NCBI RefSeq assembly: GCF_013409935.1
Contig: NZ_JACCCO010000002.1
Location: forward strand, 124,001 to 188,000
Direction: 5' to 3'
Origin: Streptosporangium sandarakinum
GTDB lineage: Bacteria; Actinomycetota; Actinomycetes; Streptosporangiales; Streptosporangiaceae
Length of the DNA stretch: 64,000 bases
In this document: piece by piece, positions 3,650 through 14,659 of the stretch
Layout: each line of letters begins with the position of its first letter
Position numbering within the stretch: position 1 is the first letter of the stretch
The notes under the pieces: generated by a model
Databases searched by the model: none
The model's input: the letters and a program-made list of their open reading frames with translations, nothing else
What the model was told of the DNA's origin: nothing
Made by a program: the position numbers and the translations under genes

Positions 3650-4669
3650 CTACGACTCCCGCCGCTCCCCATCGGCATCGGCCAGCCGCTCCAGCACCCC
3701 GTACGCCGGATTGCCCCGCGCCGCCCGCCGCACCTCACGCGCCGTGGAAGCCACATACGCCTGACCCGTCACGATCGAGGCATGCCCCAGCAACTCCATC
3801 AACTCATGCGCCGAAGCCCCCCGCTCGGCCAGCCGCGTGGCGAACTCATGCCGCAGCGCATGCACCAGCGTCCCCCGCTGCACCCGATCATGCACCCCCG
3901 CATACCGGTAGCACTGCCGCACCAGATACTGCAGCCCGCCCCGCCGCAACGCCTCGTTGCGATTGTCCACCAGCAACGGCGCCGACCGGGGGAGCGCGGC
4001 CAGCCCGAAACGCCGCATCCGGCTGTCCAGGTACCGCTCGATCAGCAACTCCACCGGCGCCTCGATCGGCAGCGAACGCGTCCGCCCACCCTTGCCCACC
4101 ACCTGCACCCGCCGATCCCCGGCCGAACCACCCACCGACCCCAGCGTCAACCCCAAAAGCTCCGCCGACCGCATCCCCGTCACCAGCGCCAGCGCCAGCA
4201 CCACCAGATCCCGCTCCACCCACGGATCCCGGGCCTTACGCGCCCCCGCCGCGATCCGCTCCAGCAGCATCCCCGACGCATCCCCATCACCCAGCAACGG
4301 CTTGGGCGCCTTGGCCGGCTGCCGCGGCCGGGGGACCGCCGCCATCGGATTGCCCTCCACCAGCCCCTCGGCCACGCAGAACGTCAGAAACTGGTTCCAG
4401 GCGCTCCAGGCCCGGTTCACACTCGCCGCCGACCGCGGCCCGGCGAACTCGGCGAACGCCGTCCGCACCAGCCGCCCCGACAGACCACCCACCTCGAGCT
4501 CACCCGGCGCGCACCCCGCCTGAGCGGCCGCCAGCTCCGCCACCGCACGCAGATCCCGGGCGTACCCGGCGACCGTGTGCGCCGACAGCTTCTTGACCCG
4601 CAACGCGAACAAGAACTCCTCGGCCGCCTCACGCACGCTCATCGGCCCGCCCGCCTCACCGCCGCCCAT
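3650..4669 (-). CDS. Tyrosine recombinase, XerC/XerD-like
   Basis: A 339-residue site-specific recombinase. The N-terminal core-binding domain (about 12-115) is followed by a catalytic domain with all expected residues: Arg167, Lys193 (GKGGR), His270-x-x-Arg273 (HALRH), His296 (LLGHAS) and nucleophile Tyr305. The length fits Xer-type enzymes rather than larger phage integrases. Start 4669 has GGGAGG seven bases upstream; an internal ATG at 4642 is less well placed. The frame stays open far upstream, but that part is composition noise. A dif-shaped inverted repeat lies 40 bases upstream of the start, a possible substrate or operator. A second recombinase is at 13529-14659. Confidence 0.88.
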   Translation of the reverse strand: MGGGEAGGPMSVREAAEEFLFALRVKKLSAHTVAGYARDLRAVAELAAAQAGCAPGELEVGGLSGRLVRTAFAEFAGPRSAASVNRAWSAWNQFLTFCVAEGLVEGNPMAAVPRPRQPAKAPKPLLGDGDASGMLLERIAAGARKARDPWVERDLVVLALALVTGMRSAELLGLTLGSVGGSAGDRRVQVVGKGGRTRSLPIEAPVELLIERYLDSRMRRFGLAALPRSAPLLVDNRNEALRRGGLQYLVRQCYRYAGVHDRVQRGTLVHALRHEFATRLAERGASAHELMELLGHASIVTGQAYVASTAREVRRAARGNPAYGVLERLADADGERRES

Positions 4670-4708
4670 CACGCACCTCCCGCCCCACGACAGGGGACCA
4701 CCCGCAAA

Positions 4709-4734
4709 TGATGCATAAGTGCGATTATGCATCA
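4709..4734. other. dif-like inverted repeat upstream of recombinase
   Basis: Two perfect 10-base arms, TGATGCATAA (4709-4718) and TTATGCATCA (4725-4734), flank a 6-base centre GTGCGA. This is the geometry of a Xer core site: two recombinase arms around a 6-bp crossover region, with the conserved inner ATAA...TTATG. The local sequence is AT-rich in very GC-rich surroundings. It sits 40 bases upstream of the recombinase start, so it could be the recombination site or an operator. The arms are more symmetric than a typical chromosomal dif. Confidence 0.55.
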
Positions 4735-5667: not shown

Positions 5668-5794
5668 TGCGTGATGTCCCGGTCCCGCCGAATCCGAGGC
5701 AGCCCCATCGATCATGAGGCATCCTGTCGGACGGTGCCGGATGTCGCGCCTTGTCGGCCGTATGTCACGGTTTATCGACGGCGGCCACCGTCAG

Positions 5795-5873
5795 CGCGAC
5801 CGTGACACGACCATGACACGGCGCGGACGAGGCGGGGACACGGCCGGCCGACAGTGGATGGGTTCGACCGGCG
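5795..5873 (+). promoter_or_regulatory. Inverted-duplicate control region, copy A (OmpR-type boxes)
   Basis: Bases 5795-5856 are identical to the reverse complement of 11906-11967. Similarity continues with four mismatches to 5873/11889. Within it, TGACACG occurs at 5803-5809 and again at 5814-5820, exactly 11 bp apart on the same face, the usual arrangement of direct half-sites bound by OmpR/PhoB-family regulators. This copy lies upstream of the response-regulator gene (start 5896). The other copy is upstream of the ddl operon. I infer a shared operator for autoregulation and target control. Confidence 0.75.
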
Positions 5874-5895
5874 AGCGAGTTACGGGGGGCGTGCA

Positions 5896-6585
5896 GTGAA
5901 ACTCGGCGGCGTGTCGCGAGTGTTGTTGATCGAGGATGACCCGGCCGTGCGTGAGGGCCTTGAGCTGGCCCTGAGTCGGCATGGGCACCGGGTGCGCGCG
6001 GTGGAGTCCGGTGAGCAGGGGCTGGAGCGGCTGCGTGCGGACCTTCCCGATGTCGTCGTGCTCGATCTGATGTTGCCTGGCATGGACGGGTTCGAGGTCT
6101 GCCGCCGTATCCGGGCCGCCGGTGAGGTACCGATCATCATGCTGACCGCGCGCGGTGACGACATGGACGTGGTGGCCGGGTTGGAGGCGGGCGCCGACGA
6201 CTACGTGGTCAAGCCGGTGCAGCCCAGGGTGCTCGAGGCGCGCATCCGCGCGGTGCTCCGGCGGATCGGCCGGGACCAGGCCGAGCTGGAGCGGCACGGG
6301 GACCTGACCATCGACCGGGCCGCGCTGACGGTCTCCCGCCGCGGCGTGCCGGTGGGCCTCGCCCCGACCGAGCTGCGCCTGCTGCTCGAGCTGTCCGGCA
6401 CGCCGGGCCGGGTGCACAGTCGCCAGCAGCTGCTGGAGTCGGTGTGGGAGCACGACTACTTCGGTGACTCGCGTCTGGTGGACGCGTGCGTGCAGCGGTT
6501 GCGCGCGAAGATCGAGGACGACTCGGCGGCGCCCGTCTACGTGCAGACGGTGCGTGGGTTCGGGTACCGGTTCGGGCCGGTGTGA
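5896..6585 (+). CDS. OmpR/PhoB-family response regulator
   Basis: A 229-residue two-component regulator. The receiver domain has acidic pair Glu13-Asp14-Asp15, phospho-acceptor Asp57 (VVLDLMLPG), Thr84 and Lys106. A winged-helix DNA-binding domain occupies about 130-227 (ELRLLLEL, then RLVDACVQRLRAKI and VRGFGYRF). GTG 5896 is preceded by a G-run; an in-frame ATG at 5854 falls in the repeated control region and is unlikely. It is first in an operon with the kinase (8-base gap) and a lipoprotein. It probably binds the TGACACG direct repeats upstream of its own gene and of the convergent ddl operon. Confidence 0.92.
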   Translation: MKLGGVSRVLLIEDDPAVREGLELALSRHGHRVRAVESGEQGLERLRADLPDVVVLDLMLPGMDGFEVCRRIRAAGEVPIIMLTARGDDMDVVAGLEAGADDYVVKPVQPRVLEARIRAVLRRIGRDQAELERHGDLTIDRAALTVSRRGVPVGLAPTELRLLLELSGTPGRVHSRQQLLESVWEHDYFGDSRLVDACVQRLRAKIEDDSAAPVYVQTVRGFGYRFGPV

Positions 6586-6592
6586 ACCGCCG

Positions 6593-8083
6593 GTGACGCC
6601 TCAGCCGAGCCTGGGGCTGCGTGCCCGGCTGCTGTCCGCCTTCGCGCTGCTGTGTGTGGTCACCGCGGCGGCGGTGGCCGGCGGCATCTACGTCCAGGCT
6701 CGCAGCGCCATCCTGCAGCGGACCCAGGACGCCGCGGTGAAGGCGACGACCAGCCGTCTGCAGGCGCTCTACCCGCTGCGGAGCGCGACGCCGGGCCCGG
6801 AGGAGCTCGGTGGGATCGCCGCGGCCGCGGCCGCGGCCGACCAGGGCATGCTCGCGGTCGCCGTCTACCGCGGGACGCACTCGCCGTTCCCGCCGAGCCC
6901 GCCCCCGCCTCCGAGACGGGGGGATCCGGGCCTGAACACGGCGGTCCTGAACCTTGAGGTGATTCCCGGGCAGCTGCGGCGGGTGGTGGCCGGCGGCGAC
7001 ACCGCGTGGCAACGCGTGGTGTGGCAGGACACCCCCTTCCTGCTCATCGGCATGCCGCTGCTGATCACCGAGAGGGGCCGGACGACGCGGATGTCCGGCA
7101 TCGAGGTCTACGTCGCGCGCAACCTGCTTCCCGAGCAGCAGAGCATCGACGAGCTCGCCATACGTGCCTGGCTCATCGGCGGGGCGGCCCTGGCGTTCGC
7201 GGTCATCCTGGCGTCGCTGGCCGCCCGTGGCGTGCTGCGTCCGGTGCGTGAGCTCGGCCGGGCGGCGCGTCTGCTGGGCGAGGGCGAGCTGCGGGCCAGG
7301 GTCGCGGTCCGCGGCTCCGACGAGCTGGCGGAGGTGGCGCGCACGTTCAACGACACCGCCGCGGAGCTGGAACGGCACGTCAGGCAGCTGCGCGAGATGG
7401 AGGCCGAGGCCCGCCGGTTCGTGGCCGACGTGTCCCACGAGCTGCGCACCCCGCTGGCCGCGCTCACCGCGGTCGCCGACGTCCTGGACGAGGAGGCGGC
7501 CCGGCTGCCCGAGCCCGCCGGCCGGGCCGCCAGGCTGGTCAGCCAGGAGACGCTCAACCTCACCGTTCTGGTGAACGATCTCATCGAGATCAGCAGGTTC
7601 GACTCCGGTGTCGCGGCCCTCGCGTTGAACGAGGTCGACGTGGCCGAGCTGGTACGCGCGACCCTGCGCGTCCGGGGCTGGTCGCAGCAGGTGAGCGCCG
7701 ACCTTCCCGTCGCGGTGACGGCGCGGCTGGACCCGCGCCGGGTGGACGTCGTCCTCGCCAACCTCGTCGGCAACGCCCTGCGGCACGGTGAGCCACCGGT
7801 GTCGATACGGCTCCGCGCCGACCCGCACCGGATCTTCCTGGAGGTCCGCGACCACGGGCCGGGGCTGGACGAGGCGGTGCTGCCGCATGTGTTCGACCGG
7901 TTCTACAAGGCCAGCGCGGCAAGGGCCAGGTCCGAGGGCAGCGGCCTGGGCCTGGCCATAGCGCGGGAGAACGCGCGCCTGCATCGCGGCGACCTCACCG
8001 TCGCCAACGCCCCGGACGGCGGCGCCGTCTTCACGTTGCATCTGCCGCGCCGGGCACACGAACCGGACGGAGGCTCCGAGTGA
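6593..8083 (+). CDS. Membrane sensor histidine kinase
   Basis: A 496-residue kinase: TM1 about 13-35, an extracytoplasmic sensor of about 150 residues with a Pro-rich stretch near 100-110, TM2 about 192-211, HAMP about 213-265, HisKA with phospho-acceptor His282 ([12 protein letters not shown]), and an HATPase domain with N box (GNALRHGEP), G1 (DHGPGLDE), F box (FDRFYK) and G2 (GSGLGLAI). It should phosphorylate the response regulator encoded 8 bases upstream. GTG 6593 has a weak ribosome site, consistent with translational coupling. The extracytoplasmic domain, perhaps with the following lipoprotein, would sense the signal. The signal is unknown; cell-wall stress is suggested by the putative target operon. 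Confidence 0.92.
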
Positions 8084-8574
8084 GGACCGGGCCCGCCCGC
8101 CGCGTGCTCGCCGCGGGCCTCGTGTCGCTGGTCGCCGTGAGCGGCTGCGGCGTGCAGCCCAGCGATGCCATCCCCGCCGGCGACCCGCCGAGCGGGCCCG
8201 TCGCACCGACCATCGCACAGGCCATGAAGTTCACCATCTACCTGGTGAAGGACGGCCGGCTCCGCGCGGTGACGCGGACCGGTCTCCGGCTGCCCCAGGC
8301 GGACACGCTCGCGTTGCTGGCCGCCGGACCCACCCCGACGGAACAGACGCGCGGGTTCACCACCGAGGTCCCGCCCGGAGCCGTCCCCTTCTCGGTGACC
8401 GTCGGGCCTTCCGGCATCGTGGCGGTGAACCCGTCCACCCCGGCCCGTGAGCTGTCCGCACTGGCCATCGCGCAGATCGTGTGCACGGCCGCCGCCGCGA
8501 CGCCGGAAGGCTCCGGCCGGGTCACCGTCGTCGGCGCCGGGCGGGGCGCCGGCCCCCGCGACTGCCCGGGGTGA
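8080..8574 (+). CDS. GerMN-domain lipoprotein of the two-component operon
   Basis: A 164-residue exported lipoprotein. The N-terminus has Arg residues, a hydrophobic stretch and a lipobox VSGC with Cys23 as the lipidation site. Residues about 45-150 fit the GerMN fold ([15 protein letters not shown], then [10 protein letters not shown] and a VNPSTP turn). The GTG start overlaps the kinase stop as GTGA. The order regulator-kinase-GerMN lipoprotein recalls the MtrA-MtrB-LpqB set of actinobacteria, where the lipoprotein modulates the kinase, but this protein is much smaller than LpqB. An accessory sensor role outside the membrane is inferred. Confidence 0.8.
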
Positions 8575-8670
8575 CGGCGGCGACCCGTTCTCCGCTCCGG
8601 GTGGATCGCCGTGGTGCCGGAAAGGTCGAGCGGAACGTACGGCCGCGGCGGCGACCGCGACGAGGGCGCG

Positions 8671-9363
8671 TCAGTCGGCCAGCGCGAAACCGGCCGCCGC
8701 CTCCGCGTGCAGCCGGGCGCTCGGCAGCAGCGGGACGGCGGCGTCCTTCTCGGTGATCAGGAGTTCGATCTCCGTGCAGCCGAGGATGACGCCTTCGGCC
8801 CCGTCGGCTGCGAGATCGGCGACGACCTGGGCGTAGGCGTCCCTGGACGACTCCCGGAGCACCCCGCGCACCAGCTCGTCGAAGATCACGCGATGGACCA
8901 GCTCCCGCTGCTCACGCCGCGGGACGACCACGTCGAGGCCGTGGGCGGCCAGCCGGTCCCGGTAGAAGGGCTGTTCCATGGTGAAGCGGGTGCCCAGCAG
9001 ACCGACCTTGCGCATCCCCCTGGCGCGGACCTCCGTGCCCACGGCGTCGGCGATGTGCAGCACGGGCACGCTCGCGGCCCGCGCCACGTCGTCGCTCACC
9101 CGGCTGAAGGTGTTGCTGCAGACGAGCAGGACCTCGGCGCCGAGATCCTCCAGTTTCCGGCCGGCGTCGGTCAGCAGGGTGCTCACCTCGTCCCAGCGGC
9201 CGGCGAAGACGAGGTCCTCGACGGTCGTGTAGTCGACCGACCAGATGAGGCTGTTGGCGGAATGGCTGCCGCCGAGTCGTTCGCGTACCCGCCGGTTGAT
9301 GACCTGGTAGTAGATCACCGTTGATTCCCAGCTCAATCCGCCGATGAGACCGATGGCGCGCAT
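8671..9363 (-). CDS. Aspartate/glutamate racemase family protein
   Basis: A 230-residue cytoplasmic enzyme with the Asp/Glu racemase fold: N-terminal IGLIGGLSWEST (4-15), first catalytic region VCSNTFSR (81-88) and second region GCTEIE (195-200) with Cys196. Position 83, a catalytic Cys in classical racemases, is Ser. The YgeA subgroup carries Thr there, so a one-cysteine, stereo-biased enzyme is possible. ATG 9363 has GGAG five bases upstream; the long upstream extension of the frame is not coding. It is last in the ddl-murF operon, after a 133-base gap. It probably supplies a D-amino acid for cell-wall precursors. Confidence 0.85.
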   Translation of the reverse strand: MRAIGLIGGLSWESTVIYYQVINRRVRERLGGSHSANSLIWSVDYTTVEDLVFAGRWDEVSTLLTDAGRKLEDLGAEVLLVCSNTFSRVSDDVARAASVPVLHIADAVGTEVRARGMRKVGLLGTRFTMEQPFYRDRLAAHGLDVVVPRREQRELVHRVIFDELVRGVLRESSRDAYAQVVADLAADGAEGVILGCTEIELLITEKDAAVPLLPSARLHAEAAAGFALAD

Positions 9364-9496
9364 GGAACTCCGTTTTCTGTGGTCTGCGCCGGCACACCGA
9401 TCGGTGCCGGCCGTGATGACGGTGCCGTCACCGGCCCGGCGGTGCGTCGGCAGGGACTTTCCCGGCCCGCTCGGTCCTTGGGCGGCGCGCCGGCGG

Positions 9497-10876
9497 TCAG
9501 GCGCCGGCCAGTGCGCGGGCGCAGGCACCGAGCCCGATCTCGCTGGAGGCTTTGATGAACACCACGTCTCCCGGTTCGAGAAGCGCGGTGGCCAGCTTGA
9601 GGGCCTGGGCCGCGTCTTCGGCGGTGTGGACGGCCACACCCAGGTTCGGGGACTTCGCGGCCTCCGCCATCGCGAGCGGGTCTCCTGTTCCGACCGTGAT
9701 CAGCGCGTCGAAGCGGAGGTCGGCGACGAGCCGGCCGATCTCGGTGTGCCGGGCGCGGGAGGTGTCCGCCTGCTGCCCCATCGCGCCGAGTACGGCGACG
9801 GTACGGCGGGTGCCGGCCAGGGCCTTCGCCGCCCGCAGTCCGGCCCGCATGGATTCGGGGTTGGCGTTGTAGGCGTCGTTGACGATGGTGATGCCGTCAG
9901 GGCGTTCGGTGATCTCCAGCCGGCCCGCGGAGCGCCGCCGTGCGGCGTTCAGCCCGTCGGCGATCTCGGTGGCGTCCAGGCCGAGTGCGGTGGCGACGGC
10001 GGCGGCGGCCAGGGCGTTGCTCACCTGGTGCTCGCCTATGAGGTCGAGTTCGACCGGGGCGCGGCCGGAGGGCGTCACCAGCTCGAATGCCGTTCGCGCC
10101 CGGTCGCCCATCCGCACGTCTTCGGCTCGTACCCGCGCCTGCGGTGACCTGCCGTACAACAGGATCTGGGCTCTGGTGCGACCGGCCATGCCCAGGACGT
10201 ACGGGTCGTCGGCGTTGAGCAGGGCGAACCCGTCCGCCGGAAGTGCCTCGACCAGCTCGCCCTTGGCCTCGGCGACGTCGGCCGGCCCGGTTCCCATGCG
10301 TTCCAGGTGTGCGGTGCCGACGTTGAGCACCAGCCCGACCTGGGGTGGTGCGATCCCGGTCAGATATGTCAGGTCGCCTTTTCGGCCTGCGCCCATTTCC
10401 AGCACCAGGTATCGGGTGGCGGCATCGGCGCGCAGCACGGTGAGTGGCAGGCCGAGCTCGTTGTTGAACGACCTGTCGGTGGCGACCGTCGCGGCGTGTC
10501 TTTCGAGTATCTGGGCCAGCAGGTCCTTGGTCGTTGTCTTGCCCACGGAGCCGGTCAGGCCGATCACGGTCGGGCTGATGTGTTCGAGCAGGTGCCTGGC
10601 CAGCAGGCCGAGCGCGAGCTGGACGTCCTGGACCACGAGGGCGGGCGCGCCGGCGGGCCTCAGGGTCAGCGCGGCGACGGCGCCGGCTGCGATGGCGCCG
10701 GCCGCGTAGTCGTGGCCGTCAACGCGGGTGCCGACCGTCGCGGCGAACAGGCCGCCGGGCACCACCTCGCGGGAGTCGACCGCTGCGGGTGCCGTCACCA
10801 GCGCCCGCTGGTCGCGCACGTCGTACATGTTTGCGCCGACGACCTGCGCGATCTTGTTCAGCGTCATGGGGATCAT
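9497..10876 (-). CDS. murF: UDP-N-acetylmuramoyl-tripeptide--D-alanyl-D-alanine ligase (MurF)
   Basis: A 459-residue Mur ligase with N-terminal domain (DSREVVPGGLF at about 34-44), central ATPase domain with P-loop TGSVGKTTT (108-116), SFNNELGLP (136-144) and EMGAGRKGD, and a C-terminal domain with NDAYNANPESM. It adds a D,D-dipeptide to UDP-MurNAc-tripeptide in the cytoplasm. Its ATG overlaps the ddl stop as ATGA, so dipeptide synthesis and attachment are coupled. The housekeeping murF of actinobacteria normally sits in the dcw division cluster. This copy, outside that cluster and beside a regulatory system, is probably an additional specialised one. Confidence 0.92.
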   Translation of the reverse strand: MIPMTLNKIAQVVGANMYDVRDQRALVTAPAAVDSREVVPGGLFAATVGTRVDGHDYAAGAIAAGAVAALTLRPAGAPALVVQDVQLALGLLARHLLEHISPTVIGLTGSVGKTTTKDLLAQILERHAATVATDRSFNNELGLPLTVLRADAATRYLVLEMGAGRKGDLTYLTGIAPPQVGLVLNVGTAHLERMGTGPADVAEAKGELVEALPADGFALLNADDPYVLGMAGRTRAQILLYGRSPQARVRAEDVRMGDRARTAFELVTPSGRAPVELDLIGEHQVSNALAAAAVATALGLDATEIADGLNAARRRSAGRLEITERPDGITIVNDAYNANPESMRAGLRAAKALAGTRRTVAVLGAMGQQADTSRARHTEIGRLVADLRFDALITVGTGDPLAMAEAAKSPNLGVAVHTAEDAAQALKLATALLEPGDVVFIKASSEIGLGACARALAGA

Positions 10877-11829
10877 GAGCCGCTCCTGGCGAGCGCGAGG
10901 TCGATGAGGCGGCGCAGCAGGTCCGGGTACGGGACGCCGCTGGCGGCCCAGGCCTTGGCGTAGACGGAACGGGAGGTGAAGCCGGGCATGGTGTTGATCT
11001 CCAGCACGTACAGGCGTCCCGTGTCCTCCTCGTAGAGGAAGTCGACACGGGCCAGGCCGTAGCCACCGATCGTCCGGAAGGCGCGCAGGGCCAGCTCCCG
11101 CACGTTTCCGGTCACCCGTTCGGGCAGCGCGGCGGGGATGACGGCGATCTCGGCCGGGCTGAGGTACTTGGCCTCATAGTCGAGCCAGTCACCGGGCGCG
11201 GTGAGTTCGCCGGGCACCGAGGCATCGGGGGTGTCATGGCCGCCGAGCACGCCGCAGATGAGCTCGCGTGCGGTCACGCCCTGCTCGACGATGACCACCC
11301 GGTCGTAGGCCAGGGCCAGTTCCACGCCCGCGCGCAGCTCATCCATGGAGGTGACACGTGAGATGCCGATGGAGGAGCCCATACTGGCTGGTTTGACGTA
11401 CATCGGCCAGTCGAGCGGCTTCACCAGCCCCTGGTGGTCGGTGGTGGTGCGCCATTCGTGGCCGGTGAACCACACATGTGGGGTGGTCGGAATGTCCTCT
11501 GCCAGGAATGCGCGCCGCATCGCGACCTTGTTCATGGCCACGGCCGATGCCAGGACGCCGCAGCCCACGTACGGGATGCCCAGCGTCTCCAGGTGCCCCT
11601 GGACGACGCCGTCCTCGCCGAACGGCCCGTGCAGCACGGGGAAGACCACGTCCGCCAGATCGCGTCGCAGCTGCGTCGGCCACCTGCCCTGCCGGTCGAT
11701 GATGACGGCGAAGGGCTCGTACAGATCCCTCGGCAGAGCATCGAGCACGGCCTGCGCCGACTGCAGCGACACCTCATGCTCGGCGGACGGTCCGCCCGCC
11801 AGCACTGCCACGCGGATGCGTTCGGTCAC
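10873..11829 (-). CDS. ddl: D-alanine--D-alanine ligase family protein
   Basis: A 318-residue ATP-grasp ligase: N-terminal AGGPSAEHEVSLQSA with Glu17, VLHGPFGEDG (65-74), KPASMGSSIG (146-155), an omega-loop EAKY with Tyr222, and the C-terminal LEINTMPGFT metal-binding motif. The Tyr in EAKY marks D-Ala-D-Ala ligases; VanA-type depsipeptide ligases lack it, so glycopeptide-type D-Lac resistance is not supported. GTG 11829 begins the operon ddl-murF-racemase. The inverted copy of the two-component control region lies 60-138 bases upstream, suggesting induction by that system. Confidence 0.92.
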   Translation of the reverse strand: MTERIRVAVLAGGPSAEHEVSLQSAQAVLDALPRDLYEPFAVIIDRQGRWPTQLRRDLADVVFPVLHGPFGEDGVVQGHLETLGIPYVGCGVLASAVAMNKVAMRRAFLAEDIPTTPHVWFTGHEWRTTTDHQGLVKPLDWPMYVKPASMGSSIGISRVTSMDELRAGVELALAYDRVVIVEQGVTARELICGVLGGHDTPDASVPGELTAPGDWLDYEAKYLSPAEIAVIPAALPERVTGNVRELALRAFRTIGGYGLARVDFLYEEDTGRLYVLEINTMPGFTSRSVYAKAWAASGVPYPDLLRRLIDLALARSGS

Positions 11830-11888
11830 GGTCGATCAGCCTTTCTTCGGTGGTACGGAGACAGCCGGACCCGCTGCTGGGGAACAGG

Positions 11889-11967
11889 CGCCGGTCGACC
11901 TCGTTCACTGTCGGCCGGCCGTGTCCCCGCCTCGTCCGCGCCGTGTCATGGTCGTGTCACGGTCGCG
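11889..11967 (-). promoter_or_regulatory. Inverted-duplicate control region, copy B
   Basis: The reverse complement of 11906-11967 is identical to 5795-5856. On the minus strand it reads towards ddl just as copy A reads towards the response regulator. The two TGACACG half-sites lie at 11953-11959 and 11942-11948, about 113 bases upstream of the ddl start. The surroundings differ, so only the control region was duplicated or conserved. Confidence 0.75.
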
Positions 11968-12077
11968 GCGGCCGTCGTCATCTCGACTCGATGAGCCTGG
12001 TGATCTTCAGGGTGCGGTCGGTGAGCCCGGTGAGGTCCTCGGCGGGCAAGGGCGTCCGCTCCCGGGGCCGGGGTGCC

Positions 12078-12122
12078 GGCTCCCCCGGCCCCGGCTCCCC
12101 CGGCCCCGGCTCCCCCGGCCCC
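12078..12122. repeat. Three tandem copies of a 15-bp GC unit
   Basis: The unit GGCTCCCCCGGCCCC is repeated exactly three times, followed by a decayed fourth copy. It lies in the 250-base gap upstream of the next gene, and no domain is recognised in any frame. Probably slippage-prone noncoding DNA. Confidence 0.8.
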
Positions 12123-12214
12123 GGGTTCTCCGGCGGCGGGGCGGGCGTGGCTCGGCGAGATTGTCGGTGGTGCGCCCTACCATGAGCCGTCTCACGGGAA
12201 GGGACGCTGCATCG

Positions 12215-13228: not shown

Positions 13229-13528
13229 GGCGTGATCGTACGCCCGGCGCCGGGACGGCGAGGAGGGTACCGGGGCAGGCCGCTCCGATTCCCCCGCCCT
13301 CCCCTCCCCGCCTTCCTCCGGGCGGCCAGGAGGGGCGGACTGTGACGGGGACGCCGACGGGGGCCGCCGGGAGGAAGGTGGGTTCTCCTGCCCGTCGGGG
13401 CCTTCTCCGGTGAGCCTTCTCCGGTGGGTCTCCGCCGGGGTGCGGCCGCCGGTGGGCGAAGGCGGGGACGGTTGTCGGCGCCGGCCGGTACGGTCAGTGG
13501 TGATCGAGGAAGGGTGCCTGCGAAGACC

Positions 13529-14659
13529 ATGCGGCCAGCGGAGCTGAATCGTCTCACCGTGCAAGAGTCGGCCGATCGGTATGTGGAGCTGATCCGGGCC
13601 AAGACGTCGACGGGTGCGCTGTCACCGTCGACGGCGGAGGTGTACGCGCGCGACGTCGTCACGTTCGTGCGCCTGGCCGGTGAGGAGGTGGTGCTGGACG
13701 ACCTGACGGGTGAGGACGTCGACGCGGTGCTTCTGGCCTTCGCCCGCAAGCCCGACGGGCGGCGCGCCGAGCCGGACGGCCGCCTGCAGTCGGCCTCCTC
13801 CCAGGCGCGTTTCCGCCGGTCGGTGTCGGCGTTCTTCAAGCACGCGGCGCTGGCGGGCTGGGTGCAGGTCGACCCGATGACGTCGTCGACGGTGACGGCC
13901 AGGGAACGCGGGGGGCTTTCGGCGCAGCGGCGGGCGCTGACGCGTGAGCAGGCCCAGGGGCTGGTCGGCGCGGCCCGCCGGCTGGGAACGCCCGGACAGG
14001 AGACGGCCGAGCCGGCCGCCGCTCAGGGGGTGCGGCGGGTGCGGCGCGACCAGCGCACCGAGATGCGTGACGCGCTGATCGTGCTGCTTCTGACCGCGGT
14101 GGGGCCGCGGGTGTCGGAGCTGGTGCGCGCCAACGTGGAGGACTTCTACACCAACGACGGCGTGCGGTACTGGCGGATCTTCGGCAAGGGCGGCAGGACG
14201 CGGGACGTGCCGCTGCCGGCCGATGTGGCGGAGGTGCTGGACGGATACCTGCTGCGGGGCCGTCCCGCGACGCCGGAGAAGGCGCTGCTGCTGTCGTGGC
14301 GGGGGCGGCGGCTGGCGCGGGGGGACGTGCAGGCGGTGATCGACCGGGTACAGCGGTGGGTGGAGGCCGACCGGCGCCGGTCGGTGACGCCGCACGGGCT
14401 GCGCCACACCACCGCCACGCATCTTCTGGCCGACGCGGTGGACATGGACGCGGTGCGGCGGGTGCTGGGGCACAGCGACCTGGCGACGCTGGGCCGCTAC
14501 CGCGATGAGCTGCCCGGAGAACTGGAGGTGGCGATGCGGTCCCATCCGCTGCTGCGCCCGGCGCGCCGCGGCGCAACGGAAGTCCCGCCGTCCGCTGTTC
14601 CGCTCCCCCCGGAGGTGGGTGGGTCAGGCCAGCAGTTCCCCGACGAGGTCGCGCAGTGA
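13529..14659 (+). CDS. Tyrosine recombinase, XerC/XerD-like
   Basis: A 376-residue recombinase with core-binding domain (about 10-115), a variable linker (about 150-175) and a catalytic domain carrying Arg194 (GPRVSEL), Lys220 (GKGGR), His289-x-x-Arg292 (HGLRH), His315 (LGHSD) and Tyr324 (GRYRD). The Pro-rich tail after 345 is unusual. ATG 13529 is chosen; GTG 13514 in frame is possible. It shares only the family motifs with the recombinase at 3650-4669, so they are not a recent duplication. The last 36 bases overlap the 3' end of the opposing small gene. Confidence 0.87.
   Translation: MRPAELNRLTVQESADRYVELIRAKTSTGALSPSTAEVYARDVVTFVRLAGEEVVLDDLTGEDVDAVLLAFARKPDGRRAEPDGRLQSASSQARFRRSVSAFFKHAALAGWVQVDPMTSSTVTARERGGLSAQRRALTREQAQGLVGAARRLGTPGQETAEPAAAQGVRRVRRDQRTEMRDALIVLLLTAVGPRVSELVRANVEDFYTNDGVRYWRIFGKGGRTRDVPLPADVAEVLDGYLLRGRPATPEKALLLSWRGRRLARGDVQAVIDRVQRWVEADRRRSVTPHGLRHTTATHLLADAVDMDAVRRVLGHSDLATLGRYRDELPGELEVAMRSHPLLRPARRGATEVPPSAVPLPPEVGGSGQQFPDEVAQ

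Follow-up and report, generated by a model that had tools for sequence, protein, structure and literature searches.

We analysed a 64-kb stretch of the Streptosporangium sandarakinum genome (contig NZ_JACCCO010000002.1, positions 124,001 to 188,000; here called the window), which belongs to an assembly of 7.65 Mb that is 95.6% complete. Two convergent operons in the window, one encoding a response regulator (RR), a sensor histidine kinase and a small lipoprotein and the other containing ddl, murF and a racemase gene, are each preceded by one arm of an inverted repeat. We propose that the two arms are copies of a single promoter box recognized by the RR encoded between them, and that the RR probably controls both operons through these boxes. 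In our model, an envelope signal would act through the kinase to give phosphorylated RR, which would activate its own operon as well as the ddl-murF-racemase operon. This activation would raise the supply of the peptidoglycan stem-peptide precursor that ends in D-Ala-D-Ala. The box in front of ddl would have arisen by duplication of the promoter of the RR gene itself. An earlier note on this DNA had attributed both operons to one regulator, and comparison of genomes supports that idea: the box tracks the kinase in 297 genomes, it occupies the RR promoter position in nearly all genomes that have the kinase, its targets are narrow, and one target family carries the box only where the kinase is present.

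The two arms (5795-5873 and 11889-11967; 79 nt, 95% complementary) are the top inverted repeat of the window in a repeat search, and the runner-up pair measures 54 nt at 76%. Within the arms, 5795-5856 and 11906-11967 are perfect reverse complements over all 62 bp, as the earlier note had stated; the weaker similarity that it saw out to 5873/11889 corresponds to the extension to 79 nt. Copy 1 lies on the plus strand before the RR-kinase-lipoprotein operon and copy 2 lies on the minus strand upstream of ddl, and each copy does face its own operon. With 5780-5895 as query against the assembly, 40 of the 72 candidate places were scored, and only the two box places reached E≤0.001. The note had also called for a genome-wide search for TGACACG-N4-TGACACG. 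This motif occurs exactly at two places in the assembly, which are the two box copies; one further place has one mismatch and 33 have two, and a backwards control pattern gave 10 matches with up to two mismatches. Just past the ddl box, at 12076-12135, there is a short tandem 15-bp repeat (CCGGCTCCCCCGGCC).

The box was aligned from 14 genus copies and then from 132 of 134 family copies, which were anchored ungapped; a 135th family copy, the RR copy of genome G268, lies outside the alignment. The core is about 57 bp long: four 11-bp direct repeats with GAC at their centres come first, then GGCC and then the conserved GACAGTGGA. The consensus of the 132 copies matches itself at 27 of 46 positions at a lag of 11, at 16 of 35 at a lag of 22 and at 12 of 24 at a lag of 33, compared with 19% to 39% at other lags from 3 to 33. 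In copy 1 the four units (GTGACACGACC, ATGACACGGCG, CGGACGAGGCG and GGGACACGGCC) occupy 5802-5845 on the plus strand, as delimited by the consensus periodicity, and in copy 2 alignment and periodicity place them at 11917-11960 on the minus strand. OmpR/PhoB-type regulators use DNA sites made of direct repeats about 11 bp apart, and the self-match at lag 11 makes the box a predicted site of this kind. The earlier note had described two TGACACG half-sites at OmpR-family spacing. The 11-bp spacing stands, but the count does not: those half-sites are units 1 and 2 of an array of four, on which two RR dimers could sit one after the other, immediately ahead of the sequence GACAGT.

We take GACAGT (5850-5855, plus strand in copy 1), which consists of conserved alignment columns, as the putative -10 element because conservation fades soon past it and because the copies stand before start codons. 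Against this assignment, a sigma-70 consensus scan of 5700-12000 gave no promoter-like site and no consensus -35/-10. If the RR does act through the boxes, activation is the likely mode. The RR might instead repress, with both operons off until the signal arrives: repeat unit 4 ends 4 bp ahead of GACAGT, and an array that reaches so close to a -10 could hinder the polymerase. However, activators of the PhoB/PhoP type also sit next to the -10, and the absence of core consensus elements agrees with a promoter that depends on an activator. Repression thus seems rather improbable to us.

The distribution of the box carries most of the argument. Boxes were searched for with a sequence-only covariance model, in 16 genus genomes and then in 297 family genomes at E≤1e-4, and the kinase was called present at E≤1e-160 (weakest accepted match, 2.5e-188). 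The genus genomes contain 14 strong boxes of 63.8-78.8 bits, with the next score at 21.7, and all 14 fall in the 7 of 16 genomes that have a kinase orthologue (77-100% identical; paralogues at most 61%). The family search gave 135 box copies in 65 genomes. The kinase is present in 63 of the 297 family genomes and all 63 have a box, compared with 2 of the 234 kinase-negative genomes (G204 and G156). The match in G204 scores 26 bits. The match in G156 scores 52 bits, is truncated (model positions 1-49) and lies 4.8 kb beyond ddl, which equals the distance of the RR box in locus L132; it looks like a deleted kinase locus. In 62 of the 63 kinase-positive genomes a box is found at the RR promoter position, at a distance of 600-1300 bp ahead of the kinase gene and on the kinase strand. 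In the 63rd, G084, a box, an RR N-terminal fragment and the kinase remain in series, so the RR gene looks deleted there. Among named genomes, the box precedes the RR gene in all 19 of the loci L132-L150, at 57-79 bits.

These distributions also bear on the possibility that another factor, such as an ECF sigma factor or a paralogous regulator, uses the box and controls both operons, with the RR being merely one of its targets. Binding by the RR itself is a prediction, and in two genomes weak box-like matches of 20-22 bits stand beside a paralogous kinase locus, pointing away from it (G006:C1:91226-91268 and G004:C2:1512064-1512108). Yet the box follows the presence or absence of this particular kinase almost perfectly, and it has the direct-repeat spacing of OmpR-type sites. 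Four genomes with the paralogue but without this kinase (G001, G007, G008 and G014) have no box at E≤1e-4. We consider control by another factor unlikely.

Conservation was also scored more widely, in the 300 bp before the RR gene (or before the PAP2-RR operon) of 27 loci beyond the 19 close ones. A four-unit array stands far above background, at the equivalent place, in six of them: L152, L155, L156, L161 (Amycolatopsis), L160 (Micromonospora musae) and L168 (Actinophytocola). These six score from -3.7 to 31.6, while the background maximum of 150 windows is -37.9. Two more loci, L164 and L167, score barely over that maximum and on the other strand.

Boxes away from the RR promoter point to a short list of candidate target genes. 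There are 73 such extra boxes in 43 genomes; a threshold of at least 45 bits, which was picked after viewing the list, leaves 63 strong ones in 40 genomes. The strong boxes precede a gene for a TPR-aspartyl protease (32), ddl (20), a PF00144 serine peptidase gene (5) or something else (6), so that 57 of 63 stand before three gene families. Without the threshold the proportion is 59 of 73 (protease 33, ddl 21, PF00144 5, other 14). The protease combines TPRs with an aspartyl protease domain (PF13432 and PF13650; three tested), and its start resembles a Tat signal. The PF00144 assignment was tested directly for one target and made by similarity for four. One ddl-box case (G286) ends at a contig end. 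In 18 of 19 independently located ddl genes the box ends 40-75 bp before the ddl start, and in one it ends 299 bp before it. Behind the 21 ddl boxes, murF is called next in 13 and the racemase is found within three genes in 12; in G152, the protease gene is the fourth gene behind the ddl box.

The protease family allows a comparison between genomes with and without the kinase, as its 60 copies in 51 genomes occur in both. Counting a box for a gene if it lies within 600 bp upstream, boxes accompany 31 of the 34 protease genes in genomes with the kinase and 0 of the 26 in genomes without it (p=5e-14). This test is confounded by phylogeny because 16 of the 26 kinase-negative copies come from one genus, g37. 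Within g4 and g31, the two genera that include both states, the counts are 16 of 19 versus 0 of 4 (p=0.004), and within g4 alone they are 12 of 15 versus 0 of 3 (p=0.02). The second ddl gene (ddl2) is itself associated with the kinase, being present in 42 of 63 kinase-positive versus 3 of 234 kinase-negative genomes (p=1e-31). Its own box is found at 19 of 45 copies in kinase-positive versus 0 of 3 in kinase-negative genomes, a difference that is not significant (p=0.27). In a matrix scan of the 400 bp upstream of ddl in 11 loci, strong boxes were seen only in the window, on the ddl strand, and in L135, where the box is on the opposite strand and belongs to the neighbouring protease gene. For these loci, a weak and uncalled box before ddl was rejected.

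Several results weigh against control of these genes by the RR through the box. The twentieth named locus, L151 (Saccharopolyspora), has an RR that is 80% identical and no box before the RR gene. No clear array was found in 21 of the 27 distant loci scanned, and 19 of the 27 are at or under the background maximum, including seven from Streptomyces, three other Micromonospora loci and L151. The weak matches beside the paralogous kinase locus belong here as well. Six of the 63 strong extra boxes precede other things (one is the G084 locus and one the G156 remnant), and two of the 32 boxes assigned to the protease stand before degraded genes (G248 and G094). The protease comparison is burdened by the box-less genes of g37, and within g31 alone it comes down to 4 of 4 versus 0 of 1. 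Constant membership of ddl in the putative regulon is not supported: in kinase-positive genomes, 26 of the 45 ddl2 genes have no box in the 600 bp before them, and the matrix scan found no ddl-strand box in the 10 loci besides the window. Finally, the association of the box with the kinase would be partly expected by descent if the extra boxes derive from the RR promoter.

The genes of the two operons were assigned mainly by profile models. On the plus strand, the OmpR/PhoB-type RR (5896-6585; Pfam Response_reg and Trans_reg_C, both above cutoffs) is followed by the sensor histidine kinase (6593-8083; HAMP-HisKA-HATPase_c in Pfam) and by the small putative lipoprotein (8080-8574), whose lipobox was judged by eye and which has a weak Germane similarity of 20.6 bits (Pfam cutoff 23). 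On the minus strand are the D-Ala-D-Ala ligase family gene ddl (10873-11829; TIGR01205), murF (9497-10876; TIGR01143) and an Asp/Glu-type amino acid racemase gene (8671-9363; PF01177, TIGR00035), with all of these models above cutoff. This operon is an additional set because the genome has other ddl genes (C2:844260, 52% identical, and the distant C1:3602751, 33%) and another murF (C1:1002402, 52%). The window Ddl scores as a D-Ala-D-Ala ligase (TIGR01205, 322.3 bits; cutoff 245.65). It was rejected as a D-Ala-D-Lac ligase (203.2 bits; cutoff 550) and as a D-Ala-D-Ser ligase of the vanC/G types (220.3 bits; cutoff 520), and vanHAX-type depsipeptide glycopeptide resistance was rejected on the basis of this ligase. 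The top NCBIfam models for the RR and kinase are CseB, MtrA and MtrB, all below their equivalog cutoffs. Assignment as MtrAB (MtrA 251.8 versus 300; MtrB 294.4 versus 450) or CseBC (CseB 273.1 versus 350; CseC 112.1 versus 700) was not accepted, nor was VanR, whose best model among the matches listed reached 157.9 bits against a cutoff of 350.

The arrangement of these genes varies among relatives. In seven named loci (L132, L133, L136, L142, L143, L146 and L147) and in G013, ddl-murF, mostly with the racemase gene, precedes the RR operon on the same strand, and the box is found before the RR gene only. Between ddl-murF and RR in these loci are an AAA/STAND-type ATPase gene and vanY, in the opposite direction. 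L135 has the same tandem layout with a second box, which belongs to its protease gene. The ddl gene has its own box in the tandem loci G078, G236, G248, G042, G167 and G215, and also in the window, G009, G171 and G120, where the ddl operon and the RR operon converge. In L145, ddl directly follows the lipoprotein gene in the same direction and may be read from the RR box. Of the 19 loci L132-L150, some of which lie on cut contigs, 17 have a vanY-type gene beside RR and 12 an AAA/STAND-type ATPase gene; neither gene was detected in the window. In L093 (G009) and L150, the place beside RR is taken by an S11 carboxypeptidase gene. The Micromonospora loci L160, L153 and L158 have a PAP2-family phosphatase gene ahead of RR, and the ddl that converges on the operon there is a different one (36-42%). 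Except for the protease, the proteins found as neighbours or targets in relatives (VanY or S11 carboxypeptidase, PF00144, Ddl and MurF) come from families that make stem-peptide ends or act on them.

The window and its close relative G009 (L093) have in common a block at 5733-11980, as found by blastn. When 38 kb of the window genome were compared with 19.3 kb of G009, no blastn match other than this block was found, although the identity of these genomes at two core loci is 96-97%. A 6.2-kb block bounded by inverted repeats, in different flanking DNA despite so close a relationship and with tyrosine recombinase genes on both sides, might be a transposable unit whose ends happen to stand before genes. 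We regard this as very unlikely, as none of the six genes between the repeats is a transposase, 25 genomes carry a single strong box, extra boxes stand in fixed orientation before specific genes, and the box is conserved in the manner of a repeat array. In DNA, the kinase gene is 97.6% identical to its G009 counterpart, whereas ddl is 91.9% identical to that of G009 and 92.6-92.8% identical to that of other genera. Because ddl is about as close to other genera as to G009, there is a hint that the ddl half of the block was relocated and recombined.

The two recombinase genes, at 3653-4711 and 13424-14656, are different (28% identical), and no relative of either was found at E≤1e-6 in the 30 loci compared. 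Each has a small protein nearby; the two small proteins have a common 40-residue motif (53% identical), which in one of them is weakly like the C-terminus of ribosomal protein L7/L12, below cutoff.

How the extra boxes arose can be read from what follows them. Behind 6 of 72 extra boxes (G084 left out) there is a piece of the RR N-terminus (E<1e-3); five of these boxes are before protease genes (G294, G120, G248, G018 and G100) and one is before ddl (G006). In all six, homology with the genome's own RR promoter region continues past the start codon. Judged from this remnant and the continued homology, these six boxes are duplicates of the RR promoter. We infer from the identity of the box alone that the other extra boxes, including the ddl box of the window, had the same origin. 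The window ddl box has no RR remnant after it. As the G006 copy includes RR coding sequence and the window copy does not, separate duplication events are suggested for the two.

A perfect match such as that between the two window copies does not seem to be typical: within genomes, core identity averages 0.83. Extra boxes are no closer to the RR box of their own genome (core identity 0.834) than to those of other genomes (0.829; n=67, p=0.14), so that concerted evolution was rejected as a general rule and the box appears to change slowly everywhere. The window pair is the most alike within-genome pair (core 0.98, rank 1 of 61), which may reflect recent copying or conversion.

Promoter propagation is known as a concept. 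We propose, with about even confidence, that the autoregulated RR promoter is a module that spreads by copy and paste. Stretches of some 80 to 300 bp that include the whole box would have been duplicated, on more than one occasion, to positions before a few envelope genes, with ddl-murF-racemase, the TPR-aspartyl protease and the PF00144 peptidase as the predicted targets. The regulon would thus have been built by copying a finished promoter and not by evolving single sites. Two inverted copies that bracket the sensor and effector operons would make a compact 6-kb unit, stable as the surrounding chromosome changes.

Parts of this system resemble known ones. The PHO boxes of Streptomyces PhoP, as described in passages of PMC6988585, also consist of 11-nt direct repeat units, with 7 conserved positions and two units needed for binding. 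However, the PHO-box unit is GTTCACC and the unit here is TGACACG-like, the box has four units in one conserved promoter module, and the regulator and targets are different. AfsQ1-AfsQ2-AfsQ3 of Streptomyces coelicolor are likewise an RR, a kinase and a lipoprotein in one operon (PMC9739842, in part), and units 1 and 2 of the box are spaced like the two halves of the AfsQ1 site, GTnAC-n6-GTnAC. AfsQ1 reportedly has no control over its own operon (passages of PMC6988585), whereas the box is at the RR promoter in nearly all kinase-positive genomes here; the likeness is one of operon layout and site spacing. An RR-kinase pair with a lipoprotein is also found in CseBC, where CseA is the lipoprotein (passages of PMC9739842), and in MtrAB-LpqB, where LpqB is taken from a title in the same paper. 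Dbv6/Dbv22 of Nonomuraea gerenzanensis are an RR and a kinase that positively regulate the resistance gene of a glycopeptide cluster (PMC7148328, in part). Unlike the window pair they belong to such a cluster, and they are likened to it by description only.

A further parallel is with the vanRSY triads, as vanY adjoins RR in most of the named loci L132-L150. According to the portions of PMC8698665 available to us, vanY with vanRS-like pairs is common in Streptosporangiales, rarely together with a racemase gene and ddl, and control of the regulon is suggested to have widened beyond van genes. Unlike these triads, the window has no detected vanY and adds murF. Those portions contain no account of the box and its spread, and a literature search, made largely at record level, found no description of the box, of its set of targets or of its duplication to new places.

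In sum, an isolated inverted repeat becomes a testable regulon, with a box of about 60 bp that sequence searches alone can detect in dozens of species and that yields a candidate regulator and a short target list. What racemase and Ddl genes do next to vanRS-like pairs was said to merit investigation (PMC8698665, in the part available), and our results would connect a second ddl/murF/racemase set with an inducible response of the envelope. Last, the box copies, some with remnants of the source gene still attached, may be a natural record of how a regulon grows by promoter duplication.

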